Virus record (IMG/VR): IMGVR_UViG_3300027754_004594
Location: 1-54,551 of that record
Origin: a virus
DNA: 54,551 nt
Direction: 5' to 3' (one strand)
The notes beneath the pieces are model-generated. The model was not told the DNA's origin and did not search any database. It saw only the letters and a program-made list of their open reading frames with translations. Position numbers and translations under genes: made by a program. Positions 34,539-54,297 of this stretch are shown here, piece by piece (position 1 is the first letter of the stretch; the number at the start of each line of letters is the position of its first letter).

Positions 34539-34546
34539 AGTGTAAT
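34539..34546 (+). promoter_or_regulatory. Late-type promoter box AGTGTAAT
   Basis: Exact octamer 9 bases before the ATG at 34556. Placed right after the methyltransferase stop, it marks the start of a new transcript. Confidence 0.55.
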
Positions 34547-34555
34547 TGAATTTAT

Positions 34556-34756
34556 ATGCCAATTCCTAAGCTAGATAAAGGTGAAGCTGAAAAAGATTTT
34601 ATGTCGAAATGCATGACTGATAACTCGATGCAAAAAGATTTTCCGAATCAAAACCAAAGAGTCGCCATCTGCATGAGCCAGCTCAAACGAAAAAAGTCCG
34701 AAGCTAGTGGTTTGGATTGGGAAGATGTGGCTGCCGAACCCTTTATAGTCTATTAA
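34556..34756 (+). CDS. Small conserved phage protein (head-gene-associated type)
   Basis: 66 residues. The pattern MPIPKLDKGEAEKDFMSKCM, MQKDFPNQNQRVAICMSQ matches a short conserved module ('P.P..gE...dFi.rCM.d..m...fp...QR.AvC...w') that I know as a small protein or as an N-terminal extension of phage head-maturation proteins. Two conserved Cys are present. Its neighbour here is not a protease, so its function is unclear. Confidence 0.75.
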   Translation: MPIPKLDKGEAEKDFMSKCMTDNSMQKDFPNQNQRVAICMSQLKRKKSEASGLDWEDVAAEPFIVY

Positions 34757-34777
34757 TAAATAACACACAAATACAAT

Positions 34778-36247
34778 ATGCCAAGTACAATACCATACGA
34801 TCCAACATTAGTAATGGGTAACCTAGTAGACCCAAAAGACATTGACAACTTAAAAGTTATTTCCGCTGCGGAAAGACCGGTTGACGTCGCTCAAGATACG
34901 TTAAATGATACTATCAGAGCAAAACAACAACTCCAAATGACGTATACTGAATTAGCAAATTTAGGATTGAGTCAAGCACAATTAACGGCACTTGACACGC
35001 AAATGACTGCTCTTAATACAACTTTGGGTCTAAATGCCGGTGATTATGCTAAAGCGGTATTAGACTCTCAAACGGCGATAGCTGCTGGCAAAAAAAACAT
35101 TGCTACACTTAGTGAACAACCAGAAAGTCCAGTTGATTGGAATAAGACAGAAATTAAGAAGATTGAATTGAGTTCAAACACAATGAATATGGATGTTCAA
35201 TACATTCGTAATGAAGATGAAGATGATGGAAGCAACGCTCATGCTGATAATGTCGCTGCGAGTGTTTCGGCAGCGGTAAGCTGTGTTTTCGGATTCAAAG
35301 CAGCTGCGAGTGTCGCAACCAATGTTACTAATACAACACTAGCAACTACATCAGCACATAATATTGTTGGAACTTTAGTTATTACCGCCGCTTGTACACA
35401 TAAGATGGCAACTGAATTAGCTCCTTTTATTTTGGATCCGGAAAAAGCAATTGATGCGTGGAATCAAACATATCCATCTGATATTATTCCCAGTGATCCC
35501 ACTGCAATGGCTGCATTAATCAATGTGGACACTAAGAATAAACTACATATATTGTCAGGTAAAACTATAGGAAGTTCTTTTGTTGGTCTGGTTCACTTCG
35601 AACAACATGAAAACACCAACTCTACCCAAAATTCGAATGCATCAACTAAAGCTGCAAATGCTTCATTTGAATATGGTGGATGGTTTGCGGATTATGAAGG
35701 TAAGTTTGGCGTTACCAAAGATGTTAGTGATAATGTTAAAAAAATGTTTAGCACAACAAATGTGACATCACATTGTTCTTTAATTACAATGGGAATTATT
35801 CCTAGTATTAAAAGCAATCTTATAAAAACAACGGTTAATACATTAAAACCAGATGCAAAAGAAGTGATGGGTCAATTGGCGGCTATTCAAGGTGCGACTG
35901 ATTCAACTGTTAAGACAATTGGATCTTCCGCATCTGACGCTAAAGTTGGTAGTCAATACATCGAATTAAACAATAGTTATATAAGCAATGTCGTTTCTAA
36001 CTTGGGGGTTATTGAAAATAATAATAATCAAGTCATTGATACCAATTCTTTAATGACTGCTTTTGATGACTATGTTCAACAAGCAACCAAAGGTGAGGAT
36101 GGAGTCCCAATCAACTTCTTCATACGAGAAATTACTAAATCTGCGATTGCTAAAGCGTGGATGAAGAAATTCAATCCAAGAGCAAATTGGCAATTTTCTT
36201 CAGGCGACGACAGTGAAACAGGCACTGATAAACCTAAGTCTGCTTAA
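34778..36247 (+). CDS. Large uncharacterised protein, Ala/Thr/Asn-rich
   Basis: 489 residues that I cannot assign. It begins MPSTIPYDPTLVMGNLVDPK and continues with helices rich in Ala, Thr and Gln. A hydrophobic Ala/Ser-rich stretch (about residues 160-210, AASVSAAVSCVFGFKAAASV) could insert in a membrane. No signal peptide is seen. The gene stands alone between an AGTGTAAT-driven small gene and two terminators. Its codon use looks less AT-biased at third positions than the neighbours, hinting at separate acquisition. It does not resemble a known capsid, portal or tail protein. Confidence 0.85.
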   Translation: MPSTIPYDPTLVMGNLVDPKDIDNLKVISAAERPVDVAQDTLNDTIRAKQQLQMTYTELANLGLSQAQLTALDTQMTALNTTLGLNAGDYAKAVLDSQTAIAAGKKNIATLSEQPESPVDWNKTEIKKIELSSNTMNMDVQYIRNEDEDDGSNAHADNVAASVSAAVSCVFGFKAAASVATNVTNTTLATTSAHNIVGTLVITAACTHKMATELAPFILDPEKAIDAWNQTYPSDIIPSDPTAMAALINVDTKNKLHILSGKTIGSSFVGLVHFEQHENTNSTQNSNASTKAANASFEYGGWFADYEGKFGVTKDVSDNVKKMFSTTNVTSHCSLITMGIIPSIKSNLIKTTVNTLKPDAKEVMGQLAAIQGATDSTVKTIGSSASDAKVGSQYIELNNSYISNVVSNLGVIENNNNQVIDTNSLMTAFDDYVQQATKGEDGVPINFFIREITKSAIAKAWMKKFNPRANWQFSSGDDSETGTDKPKSA

Positions 36248-36260
36248 TCTAAATTAATAA

Positions 36261-36295
36261 AAACCCCACTATTAATTTAGTGGGGTTTTATTTTT
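36261..36295 (+). terminator. Rho-independent terminator
   Basis: Perfect 11-bp stem AAACCCCACTA/TAGTGGGGTTT with a TTAATT loop, followed by TTATTTTT. It lies 14 bases after the 489-residue gene. Confidence 0.9.
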
Positions 36296-36315
36296 AATTA
36301 GTTAAATGTTTAAAT

Positions 36316-36347
36316 AAGCCCAGCTTTCGCTGGGTTTGTTTTTTTCT
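36316..36347 (+). terminator. Second terminator, probably bidirectional
   Basis: Stem GCCCAGC/GCTGGGT with a TTTC loop and GTTTTTTTC downstream on the plus strand. On the minus strand the loop reads GAAA, and a looser T-rich stretch follows, so it could also end the small minus-strand gene at 36356. Confidence 0.82.
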
Positions 36348-36355
36348 ATTGAAGA

Positions 36356-36553
36356 TTAACCCCTTCGACCAGCGTTCCCAGAGTTGCTTATGCTGCCTGT
36401 GTTTCCTGTGTTTCCCACTACCTTAGGCTTGGTGGGCGGAGTCGTTTTCGACTTGCCTGTGTTGCCGGTTGATCCAGCGTTTCCGGCATTACCGGCGTTC
36501 CCCGCTGCCGGGCTCTTTGCCGCGTAGCGAACCTTAAGTTTTTGATTTCTCAT
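36356..36553 (-). CDS. Small basic Gly-Asn repeat protein
   Basis: 65 residues, low complexity: after MRNQKLKVRYAAKSPA come units of GNAG/GNTG (GNAGNAGNAGSTGNTGK and VGNTGNTGSISNSGNAGRRG). It resembles collagen-like or Gly-rich linker sequence rather than an enzyme. The ATG, uninterrupted frame and terminator on its 3' side support expression, but a chance frame in repetitive DNA is possible. Confidence 0.45.
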   Translation of the reverse strand: MRNQKLKVRYAAKSPAAGNAGNAGNAGSTGNTGKSKTTPPTKPKVVGNTGNTGSISNSGNAGRRG

Positions 36554-36609
36554 GTTTCTTATCTTAAGCCTTAGCTTTTAAATTTCCAAATAAAAACACA
36601 AAAATAATC

Positions 36610-36638
36610 TTGACTCACAAGAGCTTGCTTCTCATCAT
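36610..36638 (+). promoter_or_regulatory. Promoter TTGACT-N17-CATCAT
   Basis: TTGACT at 36610-36615 and CATCAT at 36633-36638 with a 17-base spacer, upstream of the dNMP kinase. The ATG is 32 bases beyond; an in-frame TTG lies 11 bases beyond. Confidence 0.5.
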
Positions 36639-36670
36639 CAATAAGTCTGTTGATTGATTTCGCCAAAAAT

Positions 36671-37288
36671 ATGAACAAAATAATAGGAATTTCCGGCTTA
36701 GCCGGAGACGGAAAAGATTCAGTATGTAATATTCTTGAAAAGTTTTTTAAAAAACATTCAGGATATTCTTTCCGAAGGATGGCTTTAGCTGACGAACTAA
36801 AGCTTGATAGCAGAGATGCTTTGATAGATATGTTTGGTATTGATGCTGTTAAGTGTTCAAGATTAGACAAAGAGAAGATTAGGCCATTCCTTGTATTTTA
36901 TGGTAAGTTATTAAGAATTAAATCTAAAGGACAGCATTGGACAAATATCCTCAATAAAAAACTCTCTGCATTTTATTCGGAAAAAAACATTTTTTGCATT
37001 CCAGACATCAGGTATGCAGAGTATTCTGAGGATGAAGCTCAATGGGTTAAGAGTCATTCTGGAGTAATCATTCACGTTAAGAAGTATTCCGTAGTGGAAG
37101 ACTTTCCTCCGAGGAGGGTTTATACTACTCCGGTTAATAGGGAGGAGCGAGAAAATGATCCTAGAATCCAAGAACTTGCAGATTATTCAATAGAGTGGCA
37201 GGACTCTAAATTGTCAAATCCCGAAGAAGATCCGAATTGTATCGCGGCAGTAGAAGTTGTTGCTAGAAAAATTCTTGAAACTATTTGA
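36671..37288 (+). CDS. Deoxynucleoside monophosphate kinase-like P-loop protein
   Basis: 205 residues from ATG 36671 (an upstream in-frame TTG at 36650 would add 7 residues). MNKIIGISGLAGDGKDSVCN is a P-loop of the G-x-x-G-x-GKD/S form found in phage dNMP kinases related to T4 gp1. PDIRYAEYSEDEAQWV supplies the DxR substrate-binding motif. It would phosphorylate dNMPs, completing the nucleotide supply from NrdAB and ThyX. Confidence 0.83.
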   Translation: MNKIIGISGLAGDGKDSVCNILEKFFKKHSGYSFRRMALADELKLDSRDALIDMFGIDAVKCSRLDKEKIRPFLVFYGKLLRIKSKGQHWTNILNKKLSAFYSEKNIFCIPDIRYAEYSEDEAQWVKSHSGVIIHVKKYSVVEDFPPRRVYTTPVNREERENDPRIQELADYSIEWQDSKLSNPEEDPNCIAAVEVVARKILETI

Positions 37289-37313
37289 CTTTTTTACAGT
37301 CACGACTTAAAAT
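37285..37313 (+). promoter_or_regulatory. Strong promoter TTGACT-N17-TAAAAT
   Basis: TTGACT at 37285-37290 and TAAAAT at 37308-37313 with a 17-base spacer, overlapping the end of the kinase gene. The ATG at 37322 follows the -10 box by 8 bases, so the message should be leaderless or nearly so. Confidence 0.7.
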
Positions 37314-37321
37314 TAGTTGTA

Positions 37322-37537
37322 ATGAATAACACTGAATACACATTAAATGTTAGTGAGAGTCCTTCTGGGAAGCTTTCCGTTTCCCGAGTGAGCAAGTTGG
37401 TTAGACTGAATCAACATCGAGCCGACTACCGAGTTCTCGATGCGGAGACGTTTGGGTTTGCTGATCCTGCAAATCCCGCGACTCTAATTAAGCGAGCTGC
37501 TCGAAAGACTCGCCGCCTTCCGGTAGGCAAGAAGTAG
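37322..37537 (+). CDS. Small basic hypothetical protein, monocistronic
   Basis: 71 residues, MNNTEYTLNVSESPSGKLSV with a basic tail (LIKRAARKTRRLPVGKK). Not recognised. It has its own strong promoter and a strong terminator only 9 bases after its stop, so it is an independent, probably highly expressed gene. Its codons look more GC-rich than those of neighbours. Such insulated small basic genes in phages are often host-takeover factors or DNA-binding proteins; that is inference. Confidence 0.75.
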   Translation: MNNTEYTLNVSESPSGKLSVSRVSKLVRLNQHRADYRVLDAETFGFADPANPATLIKRAARKTRRLPVGKK

Positions 37538-37545
37538 GGGATACT

Positions 37546-37579
37546 AGACGGGGAGGTTAGCCTCCCCGTCTTTTTTTTT
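37546..37579 (+). terminator. Strong Rho-independent terminator
   Basis: Perfect 11-bp stem AGACGGGGAGG/CCTCCCCGTCT with a TTAG loop and eight following T residues. Confidence 0.95.
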
Positions 37580-37584
37580 AACTT

Positions 37585-38088
37585 TTAACGATACAAGCCT
37601 CTAACAGAAGCGTATTGATCTAAGTAGAATCCCGCCACCGTATCATCCCCCACAACGTGAGTCGGGGCTGAATTTTTTGCCCTATAAGCGTTTATTAAAA
37701 AGTTCAAAGACGCTTCTTCTTCTTTCTTTTCTTGGCTTATTGTTTTTATTATTTGATTTTTATCTAATTTTCTAACTTTTGTATCTTGGTCTTGTATTTC
37801 TACTATTTCATCTGTGGCTATTGCTGAGATTTTTGATCTGATTATTACAGCATACCTATGAACCATATATAGCTTTTTTAAGACGGATACAGCATTTATG
37901 TCTATTTCTGTGTCTTCGTTATCTGAATCGACTATCTCGTAACTACTGTTTATTGCAAAATTTGAAAATAGTAAATTGTTTAAATGACCGATGTTCGCAC
38001 GGACCCAGTAGGCTATCGCAGCCACGCTAATGTCGCTAGGACTTCCAATCTCTGAAAAAATTTCGCTTGCACAATCTACTACTTTCAT
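37585..38088 (-). CDS. Probable virion-associated protein
   Basis: 167 residues starting MKVVDCASEIFSEIGSPSDI with SVAAIAYWVRANIGHLNNLL, followed by an acidic stretch (DSDNEDTEIDIN) and YRAKNSAPTHVVGDDTVAGF. The layout is like small structural or neck-region proteins of large phages, but I cannot name a family. It is the last gene of the minus-strand virion operon and has its own AGTGTAAT box 7 bases before its ATG. Confidence 0.7.
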   Translation of the reverse strand: MKVVDCASEIFSEIGSPSDISVAAIAYWVRANIGHLNNLLFSNFAINSSYEIVDSDNEDTEIDINAVSVLKKLYMVHRYAVIIRSKISAIATDEIVEIQDQDTKVRKLDKNQIIKTISQEKKEEEASLNFLINAYRAKNSAPTHVVGDDTVAGFYLDQYASVRGLYR

Positions 38089-38095
38089 ATCTGTA

Positions 38096-38103
38096 ATTAC
38101 ACT
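38096..38103 (-). promoter_or_regulatory. Late-type promoter box AGTGTAAT
   Basis: Exact octamer on the minus strand, 7 bases before the ATG at 38088. It lies in the gap after the tail-fibre gene. Confidence 0.6.
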
Positions 38104-38126
38104 AGATTTTAGCTACTTGAAATTAA

Positions 38127-39893
38127 TTAAGTATATAAGGGTATATATCTAACAGTTGTTGAGTTTATTTGAATAGGCAACCATTCAGAAAAAGTCTTTG
38201 ATCCAATATTTGCAGATGAAACTAATCCACAATTTTCAAATCTTAAAGCTGCAATGTTTGATCCTACTCCTCCATTTACTTGGAATCTAACGCCACTAGT
38301 CCCAGTGGGTATTGAATTTATTCCTACATTTCCGCTGTCTGAAATGAAGATTCCTGAAAGATTAGTTCCCGCGCTGAGTCTTAAGACGCTATTATTGCTG
38401 ACTATTAAACCTTTTTGAGCTCCTCCTTGGAAGAACCTGAGAGCTGCGAAGTCTGTGGTCGCGTCGTTGCCTGATGTCGTGATCCTCATGCCGACGTCTC
38501 CTGTGCCGAAGACTTCTAGTTTGCCTGTTGGCGTCGTCGTCCCGATGCCGACGTTGCCAACAGAATCGATCCTCACCTTCTCGCTCTCGGCAATATTAAA
38601 TCGGAATGTGCCGCCTGCTGGGACGTTGTGATAGAAGTTAGTTGTTGACCCACCCGCTCCAATATATCGAGTCGCAGCTGAACTCCCGGCATTAAGTCCG
38701 ATAGGGCCGCCGGGATTGCCGCCCAATACCCAACCTCCCGACGAAGAGAAAGCTCCGGCAATATCAAGGAATTGACTGGGGCTTGCAATACCTATGCCAA
38801 CGCTTCCTACGGAAGTTACGTAAACTCCAGAGGTGGCGCCGATACCATCTCCGGCTCCGATTCTCAAGACTCCGCTATTCGCAATCACCGAACCTTTTTG
38901 ACTTCCTCCTTGGAAAAACCTGAGAGCTGCGAAGTCTGTGGTCGCGTCGTTGCCTGATGTCGTGATCCTCATGCCGACGTCTCCTGTGCCAAAAACTTCT
39001 AGTTTGCCTGTTGGCGTCGTCGTCCCGATGCCGACGTTGCCGAGACTATTTATACCCATCGCAAAAGTTTTCGTAGAGCCAATCGTAGAATACATGGCCA
39101 CGCCACCAACTCTGCTCGCGTCGTTATATGGAAAAATTAAGGCGTCCGCACTACTACCAGCCATAACGTTATCAGCGCCGATAGCAGTTCCGCCTAAGGC
39201 TCCAGCTCGTCTCATAATCATAACTGGATTTAATCCCCCGACAGAGGACTCAACATATAGAGCTGTTGCCGTCCCAGATTCAACAATGTGTAGTTTAGCA
39301 GTTGGGCTTCCTGTTCCAATGCCAACGTTTCCTACGGAAGTTACGTAAACTCCAGAGCTAGCACCAATGCCGTCTCCGGCTCCGATTCTCAAGACTCCGC
39401 TATTCGCAATCACCGAACCTTTTTGACTTCCTCCTTGGAAAAACCTGAGAGCTGCGAAATCTGTAGCGGCAGCACTTCCCGTGGTTGTGATCCTCACGCT
39501 AACGTCTCCTGTGCCGAAAACTTCTAGTTTATTTGCTGGTGCGGCAGTTCCTATTCCTATTTTATTTCCTGTAGATACGAAGTCTTTTGATCCATATTTT
39601 CCTAACACAACTGTGTTGTCGCTGAAAACTTCAAAGACGGGGAATCCTGCGATGGTATTTATGCTCATTAAAGAGCCGGACATTTGATCGTAAGCGCTGA
39701 ATAGCCGACTACTCGAGCCGTCTATCGTAAACCTATTTAAATTTCCAGTGGCGTAACTTGCTAAGTTCAACTCTCCGTTGTCGAAGGTGAGTCTGGACGC
39801 GCCGCTTAATGTTGTGTCAACAGCGGATCCAGCCGCTACGCCGGTGTTGAATTCTAAAGTCCCCGAGGCTGGTTTTATTACGATATTTGCCAT
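38127..39893 (-). CDS. Repetitive tail-fibre protein
   Basis: 588 residues, Gly/Ser/Thr-rich, with repeated VGIGTTTPTGKLEVFGTGDV units of the 'NVGIGT..P..KL.V' type common in phage tail fibres and other beta-helical surface proteins. ATDFAALRFFQGGSQKGSVI recurs three times. The C-terminus (SEWLPIQINSTTVRYIPLY) is a terminal motif shared by many phage structural proteins. It is likely part of a receptor-binding or decoration fibre. It lies 18 bases after the first LamG gene. Confidence 0.88.
   Translation of the reverse strand: MANIVIKPASGTLEFNTGVAAGSAVDTTLSGASRLTFDNGELNLASYATGNLNRFTIDGSSSRLFSAYDQMSGSLMSINTIAGFPVFEVFSDNTVVLGKYGSKDFVSTGNKIGIGTAAPANKLEVFGTGDVSVRITTTGSAAATDFAALRFFQGGSQKGSVIANSGVLRIGAGDGIGASSGVYVTSVGNVGIGTGSPTAKLHIVESGTATALYVESSVGGLNPVMIMRRAGALGGTAIGADNVMAGSSADALIFPYNDASRVGGVAMYSTIGSTKTFAMGINSLGNVGIGTTTPTGKLEVFGTGDVGMRITTSGNDATTDFAALRFFQGGSQKGSVIANSGVLRIGAGDGIGATSGVYVTSVGSVGIGIASPSQFLDIAGAFSSSGGWVLGGNPGGPIGLNAGSSAATRYIGAGGSTTNFYHNVPAGGTFRFNIAESEKVRIDSVGNVGIGTTTPTGKLEVFGTGDVGMRITTSGNDATTDFAALRFFQGGAQKGLIVSNNSVLRLSAGTNLSGIFISDSGNVGINSIPTGTSGVRFQVNGGVGSNIAALRFENCGLVSSANIGSKTFSEWLPIQINSTTVRYIPLYT
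38408..39041. repeat. Long near-identical direct repeats in the tail-fibre gene
   Basis: The segment 38408-38558 recurs at 38891-39041 (offset 483) with only scattered differences. A second pair, 38794-38933 and 39319-39458 (offset 525), overlaps the first set. The reading frame is kept in all copies, so recombination between them would change fibre length without breaking the gene. Confidence 0.88.
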
Positions 39894-39911
39894 ATTTTTT
39901 TTCTTTTTTCT

Positions 39912-41835: not shown

Positions 41836-42174
41836 TTAAGTAGTTACTTCTGGATTAATTGTAAAAGATCCATTCAAAACTTTAATAACTGAAGCATCTC
41901 CAGACGAATACCTTTCTACATCATAAACAGCAACAGTAATTGGCAAATTGGATGTTTGGGTTGAAGTTAAATTTATTGCAATTATTCCACTAACTGAACT
42001 AGTAATTGAAGGCGCTAGATTTATTAAAGCCGCTCCAGTCGCTCCGTAAGAGTATTTGGCAGACCCTCTTAGGCTGTAACCAGTTAAATTTACAGCAGTA
42101 CCCGCAGAGCCGGTTACAGTAGCTACTAAATCAAAACTTTCCCCTTGGTTGACGGATATATTATACAAACCCAT
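41836..42174 (-). CDS. Conserved phage virion protein (baseplate/fibre type)
   Basis: 112 residues from the ATG at 42174, MGLYNISVNQGESFDLVATV, followed by VNLTGYSLRGSAKYS, VSGIIAINLTSTQTSNL and YDVERYS. This beta-rich pattern is widespread in phage fibre loci. An ATG three codons upstream (42183) lies inside the AGTGTAAT box, so the later one is preferred. It is the first gene of the virion operon. Confidence 0.77.
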   Translation of the reverse strand: MGLYNISVNQGESFDLVATVTGSAGTAVNLTGYSLRGSAKYSYGATGAALINLAPSITSSVSGIIAINLTSTQTSNLPITVAVYDVERYSSGDASVIKVLNGSFTINPEVTT

Positions 42175-42181: not shown

Positions 42182-42189
42182 ATTACACT
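42182..42189 (-). promoter_or_regulatory. Late-type promoter box AGTGTAAT
   Basis: Exact octamer on the minus strand, 7 bases before the preferred ATG at 42174. It heads the tail-fibre operon and faces away from the plus-strand TGTGTATT box at 42224. Confidence 0.62.
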
Positions 42190-42889: not shown

Positions 42890-43246
42890 ATGGATACTGA
42901 CAGAATACATTTTGTTTCAAAGGGGTGGGGCTACGAGAAGTGGATAGTAAATAACGAAAAGTATTGTGGTAAAATTTTACATTTTGTAAGAGGTCGGCGC
43001 TGTAGTTTTCATTTCCATAAAATTAAAGATGAAACATTTTATCTTTTATCTGGAAAACTTATGTTAAGATACGGATTTGATCAGGATATAAACAAAGCTG
43101 CATTTATTACACTTCGACCCGGAGATAAATTCCACATCCCAGTCGGTTTGTGCCACCAAATGGAAGCTTTTGAAGACTCAGAATTGTTAGAATTTAGCAC
43201 CCAACACTTTGATGAAGATAGTTATAGAATAGTTTTTGGAGATTAA
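42890..43246 (+). CDS. Cupin protein, mannose-6-phosphate isomerase-like
   Basis: 118 residues from the ATG at 42890; a GTG at 42878 would overlap the preceding stop. KGWGYEKWIVNNEKYCGKIL, HFHKIKDETFYLLSGKL and RPGDKFHIPVGLCHQMEAFE provide the cupin His/Glu metal ligands. It is closest in appearance to the cupin part of phosphomannose isomerases, so it might feed or modify the sugar pathways of the glycan island. That link is an inference. Confidence 0.75.
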   Translation: MDTDRIHFVSKGWGYEKWIVNNEKYCGKILHFVRGRRCSFHFHKIKDETFYLLSGKLMLRYGFDQDINKAAFITLRPGDKFHIPVGLCHQMEAFEDSELLEFSTQHFDEDSYRIVFGD

Positions 43247-43455: not shown

Positions 43456-43734
43456 TTAACCCCCACTTTTCCATTTAGTAATTATATAACTTGAAAAAGT
43501 ACTAATAACAGCAACAATACCAGCTAAATAGTATTTAAAATTTTCTAAGCTAGAAACTCTTTTTTCGAGACCTTCGTTTTTATCCTTCATTTCTTTGACA
43601 TCTGACGCAATAATCGTCAGATTTTGATCTATTCTGGATAAAACAGAGTCGTAGCTTTTGTCGTTGTATTGTTCTGGCATACTAAAGTTAGTTACACATT
43701 TTTTTAAACGATTTGCTTTGTTTACTTTTTCCAT
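43456..43734 (-). CDS. Coiled-coil protein with C-terminal membrane segment (XhlA/holin-like)
   Basis: 92 residues. YDSVLSRIDQNLTIIASDVK to ENKFK-type helices suggest a coiled coil, and YYLAGIVAVISTFSSYIITKW is one membrane span before a short basic tail. The layout matches XhlA-like or holin-associated phage proteins. An internal ATG at 43680, just after a TGTGTAAC box, is an alternative start that would remove 18 residues. It overlaps the end of the upstream lipoprotein gene by 13 bases. Confidence 0.68.
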   Translation of the reverse strand: MEKVNKANRLKKCVTNFSMPEQYNDKSYDSVLSRIDQNLTIIASDVKEMKDKNEGLEKRVSSLENFKYYLAGIVAVISTFSSYIITKWKSGG

Positions 43735-44678
43735 TTTTGCTCGATTAAGATTTCGTTAATTAAAGCTTTGTCACCATCGTTCATTTCTCTATCAAGGCAA
43801 CTTAAGACGTCTTCTAATGTGTATGATTTTTCTGAGTTTTGTTCCTTCTTTTCTCTGAGGGTTTGGATGGCGTCTACGACTTTGACTAAAGCTCCCTTAT
43901 ACTTATCTCGGCTAGTAGATGAGACAAAGTTGCACATTTCAAACGCTTTTGGAACTAATGCCTTTAACAAGCTAATAATTACAGATCCAACCATATTAAA
44001 TATAGAAAATACAGCACCCGCAATCGGATTCATTGTAGAAAGCAATCTCAATATGATAAAAATTACAGAACCAACAATCACAAACGTTAAAGCGCTAAAG
44101 AAAAACTTTTTAATTCCCCAAAATACAGCATTTAAACCAAACATTCCGCCCATTTGATTTATAATCATTTGTTTTTCGTCTGAACTTGTTGCAATTTTTT
44201 CAGCAGTTGCAGTCATGTTTTCGACTTCGTCGTCGTATTTTTCTTTTAATTCAGATTTTTCTTTTTGCAATTTTGCAATCTGAGCGTCTCTTAAAGTTAG
44301 CAGAGACTCGCCTTTCTTGCGTTCTTCGGCAACTTCGGAGTTGAGAAGGTCTACGGTAGCTTTAATTCTCTTAATTTCATCAATGTGCGGGGATCCAACG
44401 ATGGAGACGACTCTTTCGTTTAAGGTCTTGGCCGTCTCTACTTGAACTGGAGGATTAGTTACTTGATTTAACGAATGTTGAATGCCAGCGGAAAGGGCTG
44501 CGGTTTGAATTTTTTTATCTTTTTCATTTTTATCAATCTTTTCTAAGATAACTTCTGTTTTTCCTTCTTGTTTCGTGATGGCGTCTTGGGCTGGGGTTGC
44601 TATTTTTTTAGTTCCGAGCGTCGTCGAGCATCCTGACAGAATCAGAATGACTAAAGCCAAAGAGAGATACTTGATCAT
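43722..44678 (-). CDS. Lipoprotein with long coiled coil and membrane segments
   Basis: 318 residues. MIKYLSLALVILILSGCSTT is a lipoprotein signal (lipobox LSGC). A long charged coiled coil follows (about residues 100-170), then hydrophobic stretches ALTFVIVGSVIFIILRLLS and GAVFSIFNMVGSVIISLLKA, and a charged C-terminal domain. With the coiled-coil membrane protein in the next gene it may form an envelope or lysis complex. An AGTGTAAT box lies 7 bases before its ATG. Confidence 0.75.
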   Translation of the reverse strand: MIKYLSLALVILILSGCSTTLGTKKIATPAQDAITKQEGKTEVILEKIDKNEKDKKIQTAALSAGIQHSLNQVTNPPVQVETAKTLNERVVSIVGSPHIDEIKRIKATVDLLNSEVAEERKKGESLLTLRDAQIAKLQKEKSELKEKYDDEVENMTATAEKIATSSDEKQMIINQMGGMFGLNAVFWGIKKFFFSALTFVIVGSVIFIILRLLSTMNPIAGAVFSIFNMVGSVIISLLKALVPKAFEMCNFVSSTSRDKYKGALVKVVDAIQTLREKKEQNSEKSYTLEDVLSCLDREMNDGDKALINEILIEQKWKK

Positions 44679-44685: not shown

Positions 44686-44693
44686 ATTACACT
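44686..44693 (-). promoter_or_regulatory. Late-type promoter box AGTGTAAT
   Basis: Exact octamer on the minus strand, 7 bases before the ATG at 44678. The flank AGTGTAATAGAAGATATG is the clearest example of the box-to-start geometry. Confidence 0.65.
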
Positions 44694-46817: not shown

Positions 46818-46818
46818 T

Positions 46819-46826
46819 AGTGTAAT
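46819..46826 (+). promoter_or_regulatory. Late-type promoter box AGTGTAAT
   Basis: Exact octamer 7 bases before the GTG start at 46834, immediately after the stop of the basic small gene. Confidence 0.6.
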
Positions 46827-46833: not shown

Positions 46834-47352
46834 GTGAAGAAGTATGTCGTATCAACAGCGGATTGGAAAAGAAAGATAGAGATTCAAGAGAAAGATAACC
46901 TTGAAGACACGATCTTTGAGGTTGCCACTCAAGCTATTGAATGGGCTTTGAATAGCGGGAAGTCTGTAGGTATATTAATTTATTTAGTTGACCCTAAATA
47001 TCCTGGTAAAAATTATATTTCTCTTACTTATAAAGTTTTAATAAATGCGGGTTTTCACGCTATCGCTGAAGAGCAAAGAGCTTTAGTTCTAGAAGAGTTT
47101 GGTTTAGACGTCTCAGAGCATCCGTTAAATAAGTTAATTACAAAACTTCAAAGAGCCTCTTTAAAAAAATCTTTTTGCATCGCAAAGCTTCTGGAGATTC
47201 AATCTGACGGTAGAGTTTCTAAAATTCCTGTCGTTTGCATTAGCTTGGGGCTTTTCGAAGAGCAGACTTTCGCTAAAGAGCGATGCAAAGAATTAAATAA
47301 AACCTCTAAAGATAAAACATTTGTTGTTCGACAAATAACTTACAACGTCTAA
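46834..47352 (+). CDS. Hypothetical protein
   Basis: 172 residues beginning at GTG: MKKYVVSTADWKRKIEIQEK, then DTIFEVATQAIEWALNSGKS and FHAIAEEQRALVLEEFGLDV. Soluble alpha/beta composition, not recognised. The upstream AGTGTAAT box supports this start and a late expression class. Confidence 0.6.
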   Translation: MKKYVVSTADWKRKIEIQEKDNLEDTIFEVATQAIEWALNSGKSVGILIYLVDPKYPGKNYISLTYKVLINAGFHAIAEEQRALVLEEFGLDVSEHPLNKLITKLQRASLKKSFCIAKLLEIQSDGRVSKIPVVCISLGLFEEQTFAKERCKELNKTSKDKTFVVRQITYNV

Positions 47353-47430: not shown

Positions 47431-48138
47431 ATGAAAAAGATATTTATTCCAGTGATTTGTTACAATCACACAGCAAATACAGAATACATGTTGAGTTTAA
47501 TGAAGCTAACTCATCATCTGAGAGATAAAGAGATTGGATATATACTATTTCCAATAGTATTTGAGAGTCTGGTTTCGAGAGCCAGAAACGCAGCAGCGGC
47601 GCATTTTATTGCTTCTGATTGCACTCATATGCTTTTTATTGATTCTGATATAGAATTTGAATCCGAAAGTGTAATTAAACTTCTTAATCTTGATAAAGAA
47701 ATCGTCGCTGGAGTTTATCCAAAGAAATATTATGTATTTGAAAGAATTTCTGTTGGAGAAGAAATCGTAGATTATCCCATCGCCGGTCAAATTAAATTGA
47801 ATGAAGAAAATCTTTTAGAATCTGAATATCTCCCTACAGGCTTTTTAATGATTGCAAAAAGTGTTTTTGTAAAAATGATGCAAGCTTATCCAGAACTTAA
47901 ATATCGTAATGATATTAATGGTTATGGAGATTTGGATACTTTTTATGATTTCTTTAAGGTGAGTGTTCGTAATGGTATTCTCGAAAGCGAAGACTGGGGT
48001 TTCTGCACTCATTGGCGAGACTTGGGAGGCGTGGTTCTTATTGATCCGACTATCCAGTTAGGTCACTCTGGGTGGAATACGTATTCGGGCAATCCTTTGA
48101 AGTGGTGCGGAGAAGCAGTCGCTAGAAATACTCCGTGA
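47431..48138 (+). CDS. GT-A-fold glycosyltransferase
   Basis: 235 residues. IFIPVICYNHTANTEYMLSL is a GT2-like start, FIASDCTHMLFIDSDIEFES carries a DSD (DxD) metal-binding motif, and ESEDWGFCTHWRDLGG provides the acceptor-side acidic motif. It is far from the glycan island and driven by its own strong promoter. In phages such stand-alone transferases may glucosylate DNA or surface antigens, but the substrate is unknown. It overlaps the next gene by 4 bases. Confidence 0.82.
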   Translation: MKKIFIPVICYNHTANTEYMLSLMKLTHHLRDKEIGYILFPIVFESLVSRARNAAAAHFIASDCTHMLFIDSDIEFESESVIKLLNLDKEIVAGVYPKKYYVFERISVGEEIVDYPIAGQIKLNEENLLESEYLPTGFLMIAKSVFVKMMQAYPELKYRNDINGYGDLDTFYDFFKVSVRNGILESEDWGFCTHWRDLGGVVLIDPTIQLGHSGWNTYSGNPLKWCGEAVARNTP

Positions 48139-48524: not shown

Positions 48525-48560
48525 TTTTTGTTAGAAAGATCTTTGAAATTTAGTCTAAAT

Positions 48561-48648: not shown

Positions 48649-48655
48649 ATTTCGC

Positions 48656-48678
48656 TGTTGAGGGTCGTTCCCTCAACA
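48656..48678 (+). terminator. Hairpin after tRNA-Leu
   Basis: Perfect 9-bp stem TGTTGAGGG/CCCTCAACA with a TCGTT loop, starting 7 bases after the CCA of tRNA-Leu. No long T-run follows, so it may be a processing or pausing hairpin rather than a terminator. Confidence 0.55.
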
Positions 48679-48683
48679 CATAT

Positions 48684-48734
48684 TGTATGGGGTAAGTCTG
48701 CGAAAACTTTCCCGCTAGACTCTAGCAACATACA
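48684..48734 (+). ncRNA. Structured RNA element between tRNAs
   Basis: Outer stem TGTATG/CATACA closes a shorter inner stem AGTCT-GCG/CGC-AGACT with one bulged base. It is not a recognisable tRNA and has no reading frame. The nested helices make a small folded RNA likely. Confidence 0.45.
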
Positions 48735-48745
48735 GTCAATTTAAT

Positions 48746-48839
48746 GCTCCGATAGCATAGCGGTCAAGTGCGACAATCTTATACATTGGAAGCTCTAGAT
48801 TTGAGCAAGACGTAGGTTCGAATCCTACTCGGAGTACCA
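48746..48839 (+). tRNA. tRNA-Ile-like (anticodon TAT) with unusual long variable arm
   Basis: Acceptor GCTCCGA/TCGGAGT (first pair G-T), D-arm with GG, anticodon arm ACAAT-CTTATAC-ATTGG with T33 and A37, T-arm GTAGG-TTCGAAT-CCTAC and encoded CCA. Between anticodon arm and T-arm are about 22 bases containing GCTC/GAGC, a class II variable arm, although Ile tRNAs are class I. The first anticodon-stem pair is an A/G mismatch. It would read AUA. Confidence 0.7.
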
Positions 48840-48874
48840 TTTTAATTGCGTAATGGAATGTTAAGACGCAATAT

Positions 48875-48955
48875 TGACCTGAAGCTTAAACCTTTGCATA
48901 AGCCCTCGCCTCATAAGCGAAAGATAGCCGGGACGAGTGCCGGCCAGGTCAACCA
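48875..48955 (+). tRNA. tRNA-like with CAT anticodon and non-canonical T-loop
   Basis: Perfect 7-bp acceptor TGACCTG/CAGGTCA with encoded CCA, D-stem GCTTA/TAAGC, anticodon stem TCGC/GCGA around loop CTCATAA (CAT: Met or Ile2), and T-stem GCCGG/CCGGC. The T-loop is GACGAGTG, lacking TTC, and the D-loop AACCTTTGCA lacks GG, so elbow contacts would be altered. Confidence 0.6.
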
Positions 48956-48962
48956 ATTTCAT

Positions 48963-49499
48963 TCATAAAATAATTAATCCAGCGTGCAGTTCTCCGTGGC
49001 AATTCCTGCATACTAAAATGCATTTATCTAATTCTTTTTTTATTTCGGTAATTGAATAAGATCTGAGGTTTGATATATTGTATTCTTTTTTACTGGGATC
49101 TACGTGGTGAAAATCTAATGACCCCACGTATTTATTGTAGCCGCAAAAAATACACTTTCCACCTTTTAAATCAACGCATTGTCGTTTTCTTGTTTTTTGC
49201 TTTTCGTAGGACATTTTATTACTGCATTCTTTGCACCAACCGTGAGCTTTGCCTTTGGAGTTTATGTAATGATTTTCTTTGTTTAATTCTTTTTGCAATT
49301 TACATTGCGGACACGTCCTGCAAGTAATTCCTTTCTCGTTAATCATATCTTGATTTTTTCGAAATCTAAGGCTATTTGTTTTCAGTCCAAATTTTTTCAA
49401 CCAATGTCTTGTGGTTGTTTGTGATTTGCCCATCTTTTTTGCGATTTGATAGGTGCTTAGTCTTAGTTTGATTAACGTTATTAAATCTGATTTATTCAT
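48963..49499 (-). CDS. HNH endonuclease with N-terminal HTH
   Basis: 178 residues. The N-terminus TYQIAKKMGKSQTTTRHWLK is a helix-turn-helix, a CxxC...CxxC zinc segment follows (CRTCPQCKLQ, CKEC), and the C-terminal nuclease is CIFCGYNKYVGSLDFHHVDP with KCILVCRNCHGELHAG. It looks like a stand-alone homing-type endonuclease, opposite in strand to the tRNA cluster it borders. An AGTGTAAT box lies 11 bases before its ATG. Confidence 0.9.
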   Translation of the reverse strand: MNKSDLITLIKLRLSTYQIAKKMGKSQTTTRHWLKKFGLKTNSLRFRKNQDMINEKGITCRTCPQCKLQKELNKENHYINSKGKAHGWCKECSNKMSYEKQKTRKRQCVDLKGGKCIFCGYNKYVGSLDFHHVDPSKKEYNISNLRSYSITEIKKELDKCILVCRNCHGELHAGLIIL

Positions 49500-49510
49500 A
49501 GCTTAATTAA

Positions 49511-49518
49511 ATTACACT
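49511..49518 (-). promoter_or_regulatory. Late-type promoter box AGTGTAAT
   Basis: Exact octamer on the minus strand, 11 bases before the HNH endonuclease start at 49499. Confidence 0.5.
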
Positions 49519-49562
49519 TATTAATATAATATTATTGAGCTACGCAAAAATTAAAAAAAATA

Positions 49563-49591
49563 TTGACATATTGAAATTTTTGAGAGATATA
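49563..49591 (+). promoter_or_regulatory. Promoter TTGACA-N17-GATATA before the dnaK region
   Basis: TTGACA at 49563-49568 and GATATA at 49586-49591 with a 17-base spacer. It would transcribe the tRNA remnant and then dnaK, whose ATG is 144 bases further on. No heat-shock CIRCE-type inverted repeat is visible. Confidence 0.5.
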
Positions 49592-49606
49592 GATGATACC
49601 AATTTT

Positions 49607-49677
49607 TTACTCGCGTAACCTAGTTAAATAGAGATTGAATTCAAGAATTGTAAATTCGAGTCTTGCCGAGGATACCA
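49607..49677 (+). pseudogene. Possible decayed tRNA (Glu-like)
   Basis: The 3' end reads like a tRNA (T-loop TTCGAGT, acceptor strand CGAGGAT, ACCA) and a 5' strand TTACTCG pairs at five of seven positions. D- and anticodon stems are weak, with AATTCAA (TTC) as a poor anticodon loop. It lies in the dnaK leader. Confidence 0.33.
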
Positions 49678-49735
49678 TTTTGGAAAATTTGACTTTTCAA
49701 CTCCCAAACCCTACAATAAGAAAAATAATATACAT

Positions 49736-51646
49736 ATGTCAAAAGTAATCGGAATCGATTTAGGAACCACAAATTCGTGCATGGCCGTCATTGATGGCGG
49801 AGATCCCATTGTGCTAGAAAATTCAGAGGGGAAGAGAACAACTCCGTCAGTTGTTTCGTTCAGTAAAACTGGAGAACGTCTAGTTGGAGACTCGGCTAAA
49901 CGTCAAGCTGTAACTAACCCCAAAAACACTATTTACTCTGTCAAGCGCTTCATGGGTCGTAAATTTGATGAAGTTCAGGAAGAGATTAAACGTGTTCCCT
50001 ACAAAGTAGTTCGAGCGTCGAATGGTGACGTTGCTGTCGAGGTTGAAATCAATGGAGAAGCAAAACAATTTAGTCCACCCGAAGTCTCTGCGATGATTCT
50101 TTCTAAGTTGAAGGCTGACGCCGAGATGCGATTGGGCGAGTCTGTCACCCAAGCTGTGATTACTGTTCCCGCCTACTTTAACGATTCTCAAAGGCAAGCG
50201 ACGAAAGACGCGGGGAGAATTGCTGGCTTAGAGGTTCTTCGTATTATTAACGAACCTACAGCCGCTGCTCTGGCGTATGGTTTGGACAAAAACAAAAACG
50301 AGCAAATTGCCGTTTACGATCTTGGGGGCGGAACCTTTGACATTTCAGTTCTAGAAATTAATGATGGCGTTTTTGAAGTTAAGGCTACAAATGGAGATAC
50401 TCACTTGGGTGGTGATGATTGGGATAACGCCATTATGGATTGGATTCTTAACGAGTTTAAGCGAGAAAGCGGAATGGATTTACGCAAACAGCCAGACGCT
50501 TTGCAACGCATTAAAGAAGAAGCTGAAAAATCTAAAATTGCGCTTTCGAATACTCAGTCTTATGAGATTAGTTTGCCGTTTATTACCGCTGACGCTAGTG
50601 GCCCAAAGCATCTTAGTTTGAAATTGACTAGGTCGAAGATGGAGCAGCTTTGCGAAAGTTTGTTCAACCGGACTATCGAACCTACTAAGAGCTGCTTGCG
50701 AGATTCTGGGATTGCCATTGAAAAACTTCAGGAATTAGTCCTTGTTGGAGGTATGACTCGAATGCCGAAAGTTGTTGAGACTGCTGGTTCTCTTGTCAGT
50801 AAGGCTCCAAATCAGGGAGTGAATCCAGATGAAGTTGTTGCCGTCGGGGCTGCTGTTCAAGGCGGCGTCCTTAAGGGCGATGTTAAAGACGTTCTGTTAC
50901 TCGATGTGACCCCGTTGTCTTTAGGCATTGAAACGGTGGGTGGTGTTTTCGTAAAGCTGATCGAACGTAATACGACCATTCCTTCAAAAAAGTCGGAAAC
51001 TTTTTCGACTGCTGGAGATAACCAAGTTGTCGTAGAGATTCACGTCTTGCAAGGAGAACGGCAGTTCTGTAAAGATAATAAAACAATCGGACGATTCCAA
51101 TTGGCGGATATCCCACCCGCTCCACGAGGTGTTCCTCAAATTCAAGTTACTTTTGATATTGATGTTAATGGTATTTTAAATGTCAGCGCAAAAGATTTAG
51201 GAACAAATAAAGAGCAAAAAATAGTTATTACTGCCAGCGGCGGATTATCTAAGGACGAAATTGAGCAAATGAAGAAGGATGCTGAAGCCTACGCAGAAGA
51301 GGACAAGAAGAAGCTTGAAGAACTGCAATTGAATAACGAAGCTGATGATTTAGTTTATAGGTCAGAAAAAATAATCAAAGATAGTTCTGACAAGCTAACT
51401 CCAGAAAGTAAAGTTAAATTAGAACAATGTTTAGCTACTCTTAAGGAAGCCTTAAAGAATAATGATTATACTGCAATTAAATCAGCCAATAGTGAATTGA
51501 GCGCGGTTCTACAAGCAACCAATTTCTTATTAAATAAAGATAATATGGAAAAAGAAGCACCAACAGGCTCATCCGCGAATCCAAAACCAGAAGATATAGA
51601 CCCATCCATCTTTGAGGAGCTTTTAAAGCAAAAACCCAACCCCTAA
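49736..51646 (+). CDS. dnaK: Hsp70 chaperone DnaK
   Basis: 636 residues, full length. [18 protein letters not shown] is the phosphate-1 loop, [20 protein letters not shown] and [18 protein letters not shown] are nucleotide-binding motifs, [14 protein letters not shown] is the interdomain linker region, and a complete substrate-binding domain and lid follow. It lacks the usual EEVD-like or DDK tail, ending [10 protein letters not shown]. An ATPase chaperone this complete in a phage is rare. It heads a cluster with dnaJ; GrpE is not seen in the window. Confidence 0.97.
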
Positions 51647-51659
51647 TCAAGAAAATCAA

Positions 51660-51884
51660 ATGGAAGAAAAGATTGATTTAATAATTCGAGATCATTGTAA
51701 ACAATTTAAAAAAATCAATAAAACCCAAAGCATTTCAAAAATAATAAAATCTTTAGATTGCATCGTTCAGGATTTATACCTTGAGATTTACACTCTAAGA
51801 GATGAAAGAAAAGCTGTCGATTTTCTAAAACAAAGAGCTGAAGACAAAAAAGCAGCAAAATTACAAAAATGTAATCATTGTTAA
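51660..51884 (+). CDS. Small helical protein between dnaK and dnaJ
   Basis: 74 residues: IIRDHCKQFKKINKTQSISK, CIVQDLYLEIYTLRDERKAV and a basic tail ending LQKCNHC. Almost entirely helical, not a GrpE or other known cochaperone by eye. The gene follows dnaK by 13 bases, so co-expression is likely. Confidence 0.6.
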   Translation: MEEKIDLIIRDHCKQFKKINKTQSISKIIKSLDCIVQDLYLEIYTLRDERKAVDFLKQRAEDKKAAKLQKCNHC

Positions 51885-51959
51885 TCTCAAAGCGAAATAT
51901 CAGAAAATGTTTTTTAGAAGACTTTAAAATAGTTATCGTTATAACTTCGATAAAATTAC

Positions 51960-52091
51960 ATGAAATATATAAAATTGGATTTAGTCTTACAGGGCCCTTT
52001 ATACGAATACACTCCACAAATTGTAGATGAATATTTTAAACTTCCATTAATGGTCCGTCAGGCAACTGACGAGTTTGTAAAAAACTTTTAA
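51960..52091 (+). CDS. 43-residue hypothetical protein
   Basis: MKYIKLDLVLQGPLYEYTPQ followed by IVDEYFKLPLMVRQATDEFV and KNF before TAA. It ends one base before the next ATG, which favours translation. Not recognised. Confidence 0.48.
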   Translation: MKYIKLDLVLQGPLYEYTPQIVDEYFKLPLMVRQATDEFVKNF

Positions 52092-52092
52092 T

Positions 52093-52422
52093 ATGCGATT
52101 AAATCAGATATTTTTAATATTAGTCGGTTCATGTGCCTTGGCTCTTGGGGGTGACATAGTGGTTTCGTGGGATAAAGTAAAAAATGCAGAAGAATACTAC
52201 ATCCAATACGGAACGGAAAATGTAATAACTAGTTTAACCACCGCCAGTAATCAATTTAAAATAGAAAACGTAACGGAGGGAAGAGTTTATTTCGTAAAAG
52301 TAAAATCAATAAATAAATCAGAAACAAGCAAAGATAGTCAAGTTTTAAAATTTAAAGTTCCAAAAGCAAAACAAAATAAACCATTGCAAGCTCCTGATCC
52401 AAAATTAGTATTTAAAAACTAA
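52093..52422 (+). CDS. Secreted fibronectin type III-like protein
   Basis: 109 residues. MRLNQIFLILVGSCALALGG is a signal peptide, cleaved probably near Gly19-Gly20 or lipidated at Cys14. The rest, VVSWDKVKNAEEYYIQYGTE and EGRVYFVKVKSINKSETSKD, is a single Fn3 domain ('v.W.....a..Y.vyy' and 'Y.v.V.a.n..g.s'). A basic C-terminal tail follows. It is probably periplasmic or on the outer membrane. Its place between the chaperone genes is unexpected. Confidence 0.75.
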   Translation: MRLNQIFLILVGSCALALGGDIVVSWDKVKNAEEYYIQYGTENVITSLTTASNQFKIENVTEGRVYFVKVKSINKSETSKDSQVLKFKVPKAKQNKPLQAPDPKLVFKN

Positions 52423-52425
52423 AGC

Positions 52426-53472
52426 ATGAGTAAGCGCGATTATTACACAGTATTAGAAATAGCTCGATCAGCTTCTGAGGAGGAAATTAAGAAGGCTTAT
52501 CGAAAAATGGCTGTTAAATATCATCCAGATAAAAATCCTGATGATAAAACCTCAGAGGAAAAATTTAAGGAAGTTAATGAAGCTTATGAAGTTTTAAGCG
52601 ATAGTCAAGAACGAGCCGCTTACGATTTGCACGGTCACAAAGCGTTTGATCCTCGTGCTCGGTCTAATGGGAACTCTCATAATCCATTCGGGGGGTTTCA
52701 TGAGACCTTTCATGATTTTTTTAGCAGCGGGAGTCAGAGACCTAGTCCAACTAGTCCGCAGCGTGGATCGGATCTGGAATGCAATATTGAAATTTCACTG
52801 GAGCAGGCGGCTTCTGGTTTTACAAAAGAAGTTGACATCACTAAGTTGGAGTCGTGCGAACCGTGTAAAAATTCTGGTGCAGAAGCGGGGTCTGGTCTTA
52901 CGCAGTGTAAGGCTTGCGGCGGATCCGGCCAAATAGTGTTGTCCCAAGGCCCGTTCAGAATGGTTCAATCTTGCTCTCCTTGTAAAGGCTCTGGTAAGGT
53001 TATTGAGACTCCTTGTCGAGTCTGTAAGGGATCTGGCCGCAATCAAAAGCAGTCTAAACTAAATATAATAATTCCTAAAGGTGTTGCCACAGGTAACCGA
53101 TTGTGCTTGACTGGGCACGGAGAGGGTGGTCTTAATAATGGCGGAAATGGAAATATTTATTTTGCGATTCACGTTAAGAAGCACGACATTTTTGATAGGG
53201 ACGGAGACGACTTATTTTGTGAAGTTCCTATCCCATTTACGGACGCGACATTAGGCGGCGAAGTCGAAATCCCCACCTTAACAGGGAAGGTGAAAATTAA
53301 TGTTCCTTCAGGATCTCAGCAAGGATCCGTGTTGCAAGTCCAAGGACTTGGCATGCAAAATACCCAAAGCAATAAAATTGGAAATCTTAAAGTTAAATTG
53401 AAAATTAAAGTTCCTACTAATTTAAACGCTTCCCAAAGAGCGAAGTTGAAAGAATTCGCTGAGTTATGTTAG
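52426..53472 (+). CDS. dnaJ: Hsp40 co-chaperone DnaJ
   Basis: 348 residues with full class A layout: J-domain starting [20 protein letters not shown] with the HPD motif in YHPDKNPD, a short Gly/Phe region ([19 protein letters not shown]), four CxxCxGxG-type zinc repeats ([32 protein letters not shown]) and the C-terminal substrate domain ([18 protein letters not shown]). It stimulates DnaK ATPase and delivers clients. It follows the Fn3 gene by 3 bases. Confidence 0.96.
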
Positions 53473-53513
53473 CGTAAATAACTGTAAGATCGCTTACAAA
53501 ACCCAGATTGCTG

Positions 53514-54245
53514 ATGGATATGGATTTAAAATACAAAAAAGTTGACGGTGGTATTACTATTACTCATGGCGATATTAGTGCAACTGGTGAGTTGATCATC
53601 CCTGACCAAATCGACGGGTTCCCGGTCACCTCCATCGGCGGCAGCGCGTTCTGGTATTTCACTAGCCTAACGAGCGTGACCCTCCCTAGCAGCATCACCT
53701 CTATCGCCGCCGCAGCGTTCTTAGGGTGCAGTGGTCTGACGAGTGTGACTCTCCCTAGTGGCCTCACCTCCATCGGTAACGAAGCGTTCTATGGGTGCAG
53801 TGGCCTGACGAGCGTGATACTCCCCAGCAACCTCACTTCCATCGGTGACGAAACGTTCAGTTCGTGCAGGGGATTGACGAGTGTGACCCTCCCCAATAGC
53901 CTCACCTCCATCGGTAACGATGCGTTCTCGTGGTGCCCTGCTCTGACGAGCGTGACCCTTCCCGACAGCCTCACCTCCATCGGCGACTATGCGTTCTATG
54001 GGTGTAGTGGGTTGACAAGCGTAATCCTTCCCAACAGTCTTACCTCCATCGGCAACTATGCGTTCTATTGGTGCAGTGGATTGACAAGCGTAATCCTCCC
54101 TAGTGGCCTCAAGTCTATCGGCAACAATATATTCTACGGCTGCGCTGGGTTGAAGAGTGTGACGACGTCTAAAGCTGCCGTCTCAGCCCTAATAAAAAAC
54201 GTGTTCCCTCCTGATGTCGAAGTAATCTATGATATAGAAAATTGA
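53514..54245 (+). CDS. BspA-type leucine-rich-repeat protein
   Basis: 243 residues from ATG 53514 (a TTG two codons upstream is less likely). After a short head (YKKVDGGITITHGDISATG) come seven to eight 23-residue repeats of the form LTSVTLP-x2-LTSIG-x2-AF-x2-CSG, the LRR_5/BspA type. No signal peptide is seen. The repeats are nearly identical also in DNA and clearly GC-richer than the surrounding genes, which suggests recent acquisition and repeat expansion. Such proteins mediate adhesion or protein binding. Confidence 0.9.
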   Translation: MDMDLKYKKVDGGITITHGDISATGELIIPDQIDGFPVTSIGGSAFWYFTSLTSVTLPSSITSIAAAAFLGCSGLTSVTLPSGLTSIGNEAFYGCSGLTSVILPSNLTSIGDETFSSCRGLTSVTLPNSLTSIGNDAFSWCPALTSVTLPDSLTSIGDYAFYGCSGLTSVILPNSLTSIGNYAFYWCSGLTSVILPSGLKSIGNNIFYGCAGLKSVTTSKAAVSALIKNVFPPDVEVIYDIEN

Positions 54246-54289
54246 AGGAAAGAGTGAATGTGCAAATTTAGCCTAGTATCCATTGACCA

Positions 54290-54297
54290 AGTGTAAT
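54290..54297 (+). promoter_or_regulatory. Late-type promoter box AGTGTAAT
   Basis: Exact octamer 13 bases before the ATG at 54311, overlapping a TTGACC hexamer. Confidence 0.5.

Follow-up and report, generated by a model that had tools for sequence, protein, structure and literature searches.

An invariant GTGTAA element as a candidate phage-specific late promoter with predicted short or absent mRNA leaders in an environmental phage contig and its relatives

Why does one octamer, AGTGTAAT, recur a few bases upstream of phage genes lying in both orientations? A sequence-only reading of the stretch of viral DNA analyzed here (54,551 bases; hereafter, the window) had proposed that it is a phage-specific late promoter of the T4 type, to be checked by counting it genome-wide and near gene starts. 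In the window, we found 10 exact copies of AGTGTAAT, whereas 1.89 are expected from dinucleotide shuffles (maximum of 6 in 100 shuffles). The seven copies that had been placed 7-13 bases before start codons, on both strands, were all recovered at those positions. The zone located 5-20 nt before starts makes up 1.8% of positions, yet it holds 7 of the 10 copies (binomial P = 8e-11), and AGTGTAAT is the sole octamer with more than three copies there among the 1321 octamers that occur 8-14 times in the window. The sequence-only reading had listed a single copy inside a gene, at 32341-32348 (-); that copy is present, with no start near it, but it is one of three. The other two lie at 43106-43113 (-), antisense within a gene, and at 47668-47675 (+), and all three are probably chance occurrences.

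The octamer contains a shorter core, namely an invariant GTGTAA followed by T or, less often, by A, and its leading A is merely part of an A/T-rich preference. An unguided count of words in the 40 nt before starts ranked GTGTAAT/GTGTAA first in the window combined with its extension contig (G012, see below) and, independently, in a relative (G001). At gaps of 6-11 nt between motif and start codon, GTGTAAT occurred 17 times versus 0.17 expected, and the one-mismatch forms occurred 0-2 times each, nearly all of them 0. Start codons were obtained by mechanical ORF calling; only the start of the longest ORF entered the k-mer tests, and the orthologue and variant counts also admitted starts located early in each ORF. 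A palindrome/operator reading was also considered and dropped, as the sites proved not to be palindromic on inspection.

The window encodes the PHP part of a DnaE-type polymerase (the remainder is on the extension contig), a replicative helicase, a UvsX-like recombinase, a class I ribonucleotide reductase (RNR), a sugar/LPS block, Hsp70, DnaJ, three tRNAs, and one sigma factor. Its positions 1-32 kb, which lack sites, form a replication/metabolism (sugar) cluster. The extension contig G012 (IMG/VR, 57.7 kb) has a helicase 100% identical to that of the window and the same gene order, and it carries the phage sequence on beyond base 1 of the window, into tail genes. The two are fragments of one phage, and most records of its relatives are also fragments; G001 (174.5 kb) is an independent relative. 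No GenBank phage was found near the window, and scans returned no relatives of two window proteins of 66 and 167 aa. The view that the window derives from a T4 relative, first suggested by UvsX and RNR, was discarded given its DnaE-like polymerase, its unmatched structural proteins, and the missing gp55 family. The phage DnaK is ~70-80% identical to Verrucomicrobiota proteins, and because its best 80 matches all belong to Verrucomicrobiota or to a few unnamed MAGs, Verrucomicrobiota are the likely hosts, with the caveat that dnaK can be transferred horizontally.

We propose, with a probability of roughly 0.8, that GTGTAA(T/A) serves as the sole -10-like element of a late promoter specific to the phage, one that is read by a phage sigma factor, likely the one designated C below, and that yields short or no leaders. 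According to this model, host RNA polymerase carrying the phage sigma factor would melt GTGTAA(T/A) and start RNA 8 bp past its seventh base, at a purine that follows a pyrimidine. At a gap of 7 nt, the start would be the A of AUG, leaving no leader; gaps of 8-11 would give leaders of 1-4 nt, and gaps of 12 or more would leave room for a leader, with such sites sometimes carrying a Shine-Dalgarno (SD)-like motif. This promoter class would drive late expression of genes for the virion, for packaging, and for lysis. Sigma C, encoded beside terminase, would read the element, and its own unit, which usually begins with a GTGTAA site, would thereby come under positive feedback.

Applied to the window, this rule predicts four exactly leaderless transcripts, each from a copy of AGTGTAAT at a gap of 7 nt. 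On the minus strand, the copy at 38096-38103 would start RNA at 38088, the A of the ATG of a 167-aa gene (37585-38088); it is kept in G001, G007, G008, and G010 and is missing in G009 and G011. The copy at 42182-42189 (-) would likewise start RNA on the A of the ATG at 42174 (112-aa gene, 41836-42174) and is kept in G001, G009, G010, and G011. That at 44686-44693 (-) would do so at 44678, the first base of a 318-aa lipoprotein gene (43722-44678); before the orthologues of this gene in G001 and G011, the site is wedged between a terminator and the start codon. On the plus strand, the copy at 46819-46826 would start RNA on the G of the GTG start at 46834 (172-aa gene, 46834-47352); in G001, it is kept with the same gap of 7 and again with a GTG start.

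Leaders of 2-6 nt are predicted at the remaining sites. For the copy at 34539-34546 (+; GTGTAA at 34540; gap of 9 nt), the predicted RNA start is 34554 and the ATG is at 34556 (leader of 2 nt; 66-aa gene, 34556-34756); the site also precedes the orthologues in G001, G007, G008, G009, G010, and G011. The copy at 49511-49518 (-; gap of 11 nt) has a predicted start at 49503 and a 4-nt leader before the ATG at 49499 of an HNH endonuclease gene (48963-49499), and the copy at 54290-54297 (+; gap of 13 nt) has a predicted start at 54305 and a 6-nt leader before the gene that runs from the ATG at 54311 to the window end, though this site is missing before the orthologues in G001 and G011. Variants had also been pointed out. 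One of them, GTGTAAC at 43691-43697 (-; gap of 10), is a good site, with a predicted RNA start at 43683, a 3-nt leader before the ATG at 43680, and conservation in G001 and G011, but another, GTGTATT at a gap of 7 from 42239, belongs to a form that is not enriched elsewhere. The very short leaders anticipated by the sequence-only reading are therefore borne out as a prediction (0-6 nt, from the initiator distance).

Sites are found before 8 of the 37 genes in the rest of the window versus none of the 34 in its 1-32 kb part (P = 0.005). The orthologue comparison covered the window, G012, G001, and G007-G011. In 9 of the 10 orthologue pairs (window/G012 versus G001) having a site on either side, it was present on both, mostly with an equal gap and with flanks whose identity was at background; the 100% identity of the hexamer between orthologues is built into this test, but the count of 9 in 10 is a free outcome of it. 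The genes downstream of sites encode the tape measure protein (PF10145), a virion structural protein (phrog_1645), giant tail proteins, the lipoprotein, and a small membrane protein that may act in lysis, namely the 74-aa product of the gene at 43680 (-), which has a coiled coil and a hydrophobic end and appears holin-like. Given this content (virion and lysis), we infer that the genes behind GTGTAA constitute a late class.

The surroundings of the motif were examined in diverged sites. Among 126 of them, no upstream column exceeded 0.26 bit, and beyond -6 none exceeded 0.2 bit, which agrees with the earlier remark that a consistent -35 box is lacking; upstream, there is an A/T preference alone, recurring once per helical turn (about -4, -14, and -25). 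Downstream, 59 of the 99 diverged sites with a gap of at least 10 have a pyrimidine-purine step from base 13 to base 14 (base 0 being the G of GTGTAA), versus 27% at other steps (P = 1e-11), and GTGTAA copies inside genes do not have it. The step apparently marks an initiator whose distance is fixed relative to the motif rather than to the ATG. It lies 8 bp past the heptamer and, at the commonest gap (7), it meets the A of the ATG.

Which sigma factor would read such a promoter? G001 encodes three sigma-70-region-2 proteins, A (18526-19383, -; 285 aa), B (202 aa, the orthologue of the window's sigma factor), and C (170938-171618, -; 226 aa, three genes from terminase), and because there are three, the assignment is by co-distribution only; on that basis, the reader is probably C. 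At least 589 contigs contained sigma C, and none of 50,697 GenBank phages gave a match to it. The motif accompanies the sigma C family at 145 further IMG/VR loci, with sigma identity down to 55%, most of the loci having been drawn from the neighborhood of sigma C. In each group of sigma C loci, GTGTAA either ranks first among upstream words or forms part of the first-ranked one: there were 40 copies versus 1.9 expected in loci whose C is at least 71% identical to that of G001 (near-identical loci only partly removed), 75 versus 2.9 in those with 55-59% identity, and 132 versus 6.4 in a third group (P = 7e-121), where every locus longer than 8 kb has a site. In addition, at 29 of 48 loci, the same-strand gene run holding sigma C opens with a GTGTAA site.

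Sigma C has a near-invariant region-2 stretch (PWxNRIISNQIKNLIRNNYxN) and a CxxC...C...C insert that is zinc-ribbon-like. Pfam finds region 2 alone (PF04542, above cut-off). The best fold matches of its structure model are sigma factors, none of them below E 1e-3, and the model places a region-4-like bundle at the C terminus, in both cases with modest confidence. Such an end would predict a -35 element, and the promoter is without one. Sigma C is present in neither the window nor its G012 extension, both of which are fragments; sigma A and sigma C of this phage would lie in the unassembled part.

The sequence-only reading had looked to the sigma factor of the window itself, sigma B (30796-31413, -), a 205-aa sigma-70-family protein with region 2 and a weak region 4. 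The window has no other sigma factor, every close relative that bears the motif also encodes sigma B, and the position of its gene in the replication/RNR block would suit an early/middle regulator. However, scans found sigma B in just 11 contigs, compared with GTGTAA at ~145 sigma C loci, and it has a recognizable region-4-like helix-turn-helix that fits poorly with a promoter lacking a -35 element. The protein had no match in GenBank phages, and its structure model is poor and usable for fold class alone. The variant noted near its gene, TGTGTAAT at 31459-31466 (-), is of doubtful standing; it lies 45 nt from the start and is not conserved in relatives. A real promoter read by sigma B is thus unlikely, and sigma C, which tracks the motif across hundreds of contigs, is the better candidate.

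It might also be argued that GTGTAA acts in the mRNA, as a translation-initiation element, since it sits near start codons and since, within gene runs, some of its copies share bases with the stop codon of the gene before. We consider this highly improbable. The ribosomes reading it would be those of the likely hosts, but two Verrucomicrobiota genomes (200 kb each) showed no excess of GTGTAA before genes, and it is therefore not a host ribosome signal; the octamer likewise showed no general excess in six whole genomes. Moreover, at the lipoprotein gene in G001 (47445) and G011 (53671), only 23-24 nt separate the end of a terminator hairpin and its U-tract from the ATG, GTGTAA lies within this stretch, and RNA must therefore begin inside that interval. 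The pyrimidine-purine step keeping its distance from the motif also argues against a translation element. Collectively, a motif that is invariant, conserved, partitioned among genes, coupled to a fixed initiator, and not enriched in hosts or control phages makes the proposal of a phage-specific late promoter well supported, as far as sequence comparison can carry it, and the GTGTAA sites are presumably transcribed as promoters.

If so, the spacing has consequences for translation. Among 181 unique sites, the gap is 7 in 38 and no more than 11 in 116; most gaps below 7 come from TTG or GTG calls that are closely followed by an ATG. At the commonest spacing, the predicted initiator falls on the A of the ATG, so many transcripts would be expected to lack a leader. 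Defining leaderless as a leader shorter than 8 nt, this is predicted from the gap for 116 of the 181 unique sites (gap of at most 11). An SD-like motif occurs in 2 of 85 short-gap leaders versus 11 of 41 long-gap ones. Near-leaderless late mRNAs are supported as a prediction. SD use in the likely host genomes is not above background, in agreement with the published scarcity of SD sequences in Verrucomicrobia (PMC10783764), and we postulate that the leaderless mRNAs would be translated by SD-independent ribosomes of the Verrucomicrobiota type. Ribosomal protein bS21, a possible explanation of SD-less translation, was sought and not found. We lean slightly toward a broader view, in which a large uncultured lineage, with a zinc-ribbon-like sigma factor not seen in GenBank phages and an invariant GTGTAA, has leaderless mRNA as its default late strategy, suited in the window's phage to SD-poor hosts.

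The T4-type label attached to the octamer was not supported by comparison. T4 late promoters (TATAAATA, gp55/gp33/gp45) have one -10-like box and no -35, serve virion genes, and depend on a phage sigma factor (PMC2988020), traits that are shared here, and boxes do vary within the T4 family, e.g., in Aeh1 (PMC2988020). Nevertheless, a T4-type promoter with a changed box is very doubtful. The T4 late-sigma family (phrog_234) was absent in the window, G001, G012, G003, G009, G011, and G007 (mostly fragments) but was found in T4; the sigma family differs as well as the box. The DNA polymerase is DnaE-like, not family B, the structural genes searched had no match to T4 families, and the gap to the ATG is 7-11 nt, as opposed to 14-28 nt for T4 boxes when analyzed in the same way. 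The gp45-type clamp (PF02916) had no match here, but the controls gave none either. Run through the same pipeline, T4 returned TATAAATA as its top motif, cyanophage S-H25 returned ATAAATA, and Bacillus phage FADO returned the Shine-Dalgarno sequence; GTGTAA was at chance in all three, and TATAAATA was no more frequent than chance around sigma C. Finally, the idea that composition (a window of 37% GC with AT-rich gene starts) makes octamers look clustered by chance is already refuted, as same-letter scrambled hexamers reached at most 9 copies, save the overlapping register AGTGTA (19), against 27 for GTGTAA, and the motif was independently replicated in other contigs.

The analysis yields a testable promoter rule (hexamer, initiator, and exact RNA start) for a group of hundreds of environmental contigs with no relative found among GenBank phages, and it names a probable dedicated sigma factor for them. 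It also links the spacing of promoters to leaderless translation in bacteria that make little use of Shine-Dalgarno sequences, and makes late genes callable in metagenomes from sequence alone. In addition, it offers a natural system for studying how promoter recognition by a sigma factor can rest on a single invariant hexamer when there is no -35 element. Our literature search found no published description of this promoter or lineage.

Among known systems other than T4, the promoters of phiEco32 gp36 (tAATGTAtA) are, in the excerpted text of PMC8948821, single elements without a -35, the latter explained by the missing region 4 of gp36; they serve middle/late genes, only six are known, and RNA starts 6-8 bp downstream. 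Shared with our sites are a phage-encoded sigma factor, one short conserved element, and the lack of a -35, and the pyrimidine-purine start predicted here, 8 bp after the heptamer, is comparable. In contrast, the consensus (here GTGTAA(T/A)) and the host differ, sigma C seems in its model to keep the region-4-like end that gp36 lacks, and the leaderless pattern predicted here is not reported in that excerpt. The same excerpt (PMC8948821) describes promoters of phage 7-11 gp47 (GTAAtg-16-aCTA), an ECF-like phage sigma factor with region 4 that serves late genes; a phage sigma factor and late genes are common to both systems, as may be region 4, whereas those promoters are bipartite and ours has a single element. 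The late promoters of the AR9/phiKZ non-virion RNA polymerases also have a short phage-specific consensus near the RNA start, but they are read by a phage multisubunit polymerase, of which no Rpb2-type subunit (PF00562) was found here; AR9 leaders span 26-491 nt (PMC5312081). The promoter proposed here would be a further form of a known kind, a single element read by a phage sigma factor.

Relatives of the phage conserve a long non-coding stretch a short distance upstream of the gene for sigma B, the sole sigma factor encoded in the window. In the window, this stretch lies at about 31840-32250 on the minus strand and retains the most conserved blocks, with counterparts at about 8200-8600 of the relative sequence L009 and equivalents in L014, L016, L017, and L018. 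RNAalifold applied to five relatives yielded a fold of -90 kcal/mol with 107 pairs, 23 of which have changed on both sides, and two related AAGGCGATGG hairpins occur within the stretch. Rfam revealed no family for it. Judged by this modeled fold, the stretch looks like a large structured RNA.

Since three sigma-70-family proteins are encoded in the single phage genome G001, a 174.5-kb relative (18526-19383, 75934-76542, and 170938-171618), our data suggest a sigma cascade in this phage. The third is sigma C (L031:10938-11618 family, A2), whose regions 2 and 4 are separated by a conserved CxxC...C...C insert that is perhaps zinc-binding.

In the relatives, TTGACTT is overrepresented upstream of genes. 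At about 78376-78420 of G001, a sigma-70-like TTGACT / TATTGT pair overlaps GTGTAA, the core of the proposed late promoter, ahead of a gene for 656-671 aa, and equivalents are found in G007, G008, G009, G010, and G011. From its sequence, this arrangement looks like a combined early and late promoter. Amid the late lysis-like genes of G001, a 592-aa ankyrin-repeat protein is encoded (L025:9745-11523).

The replication/RNR strand of the window hosts a sugar/LPS-type block (7932-25489, minus strand) comprising an aminotransferase, epimerases, heptose enzymes, glycosyltransferases, and methyltransferases. Full-length DnaK (49736-51646) and DnaJ (52426-53472) are encoded on the plus strand, and a repetitive 'LTSVTLPSSLTSIGDEAF' leucine-rich-type protein, read directly from the sequence, adjoins DnaJ (53508-54245, plus strand). 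Given that the phage DnaK is ~70-80% identical to Verrucomicrobiota proteins, with Limisphaerales/Pedosphaerales among the best matches, sequence identity suggests Verrucomicrobiota as the host.
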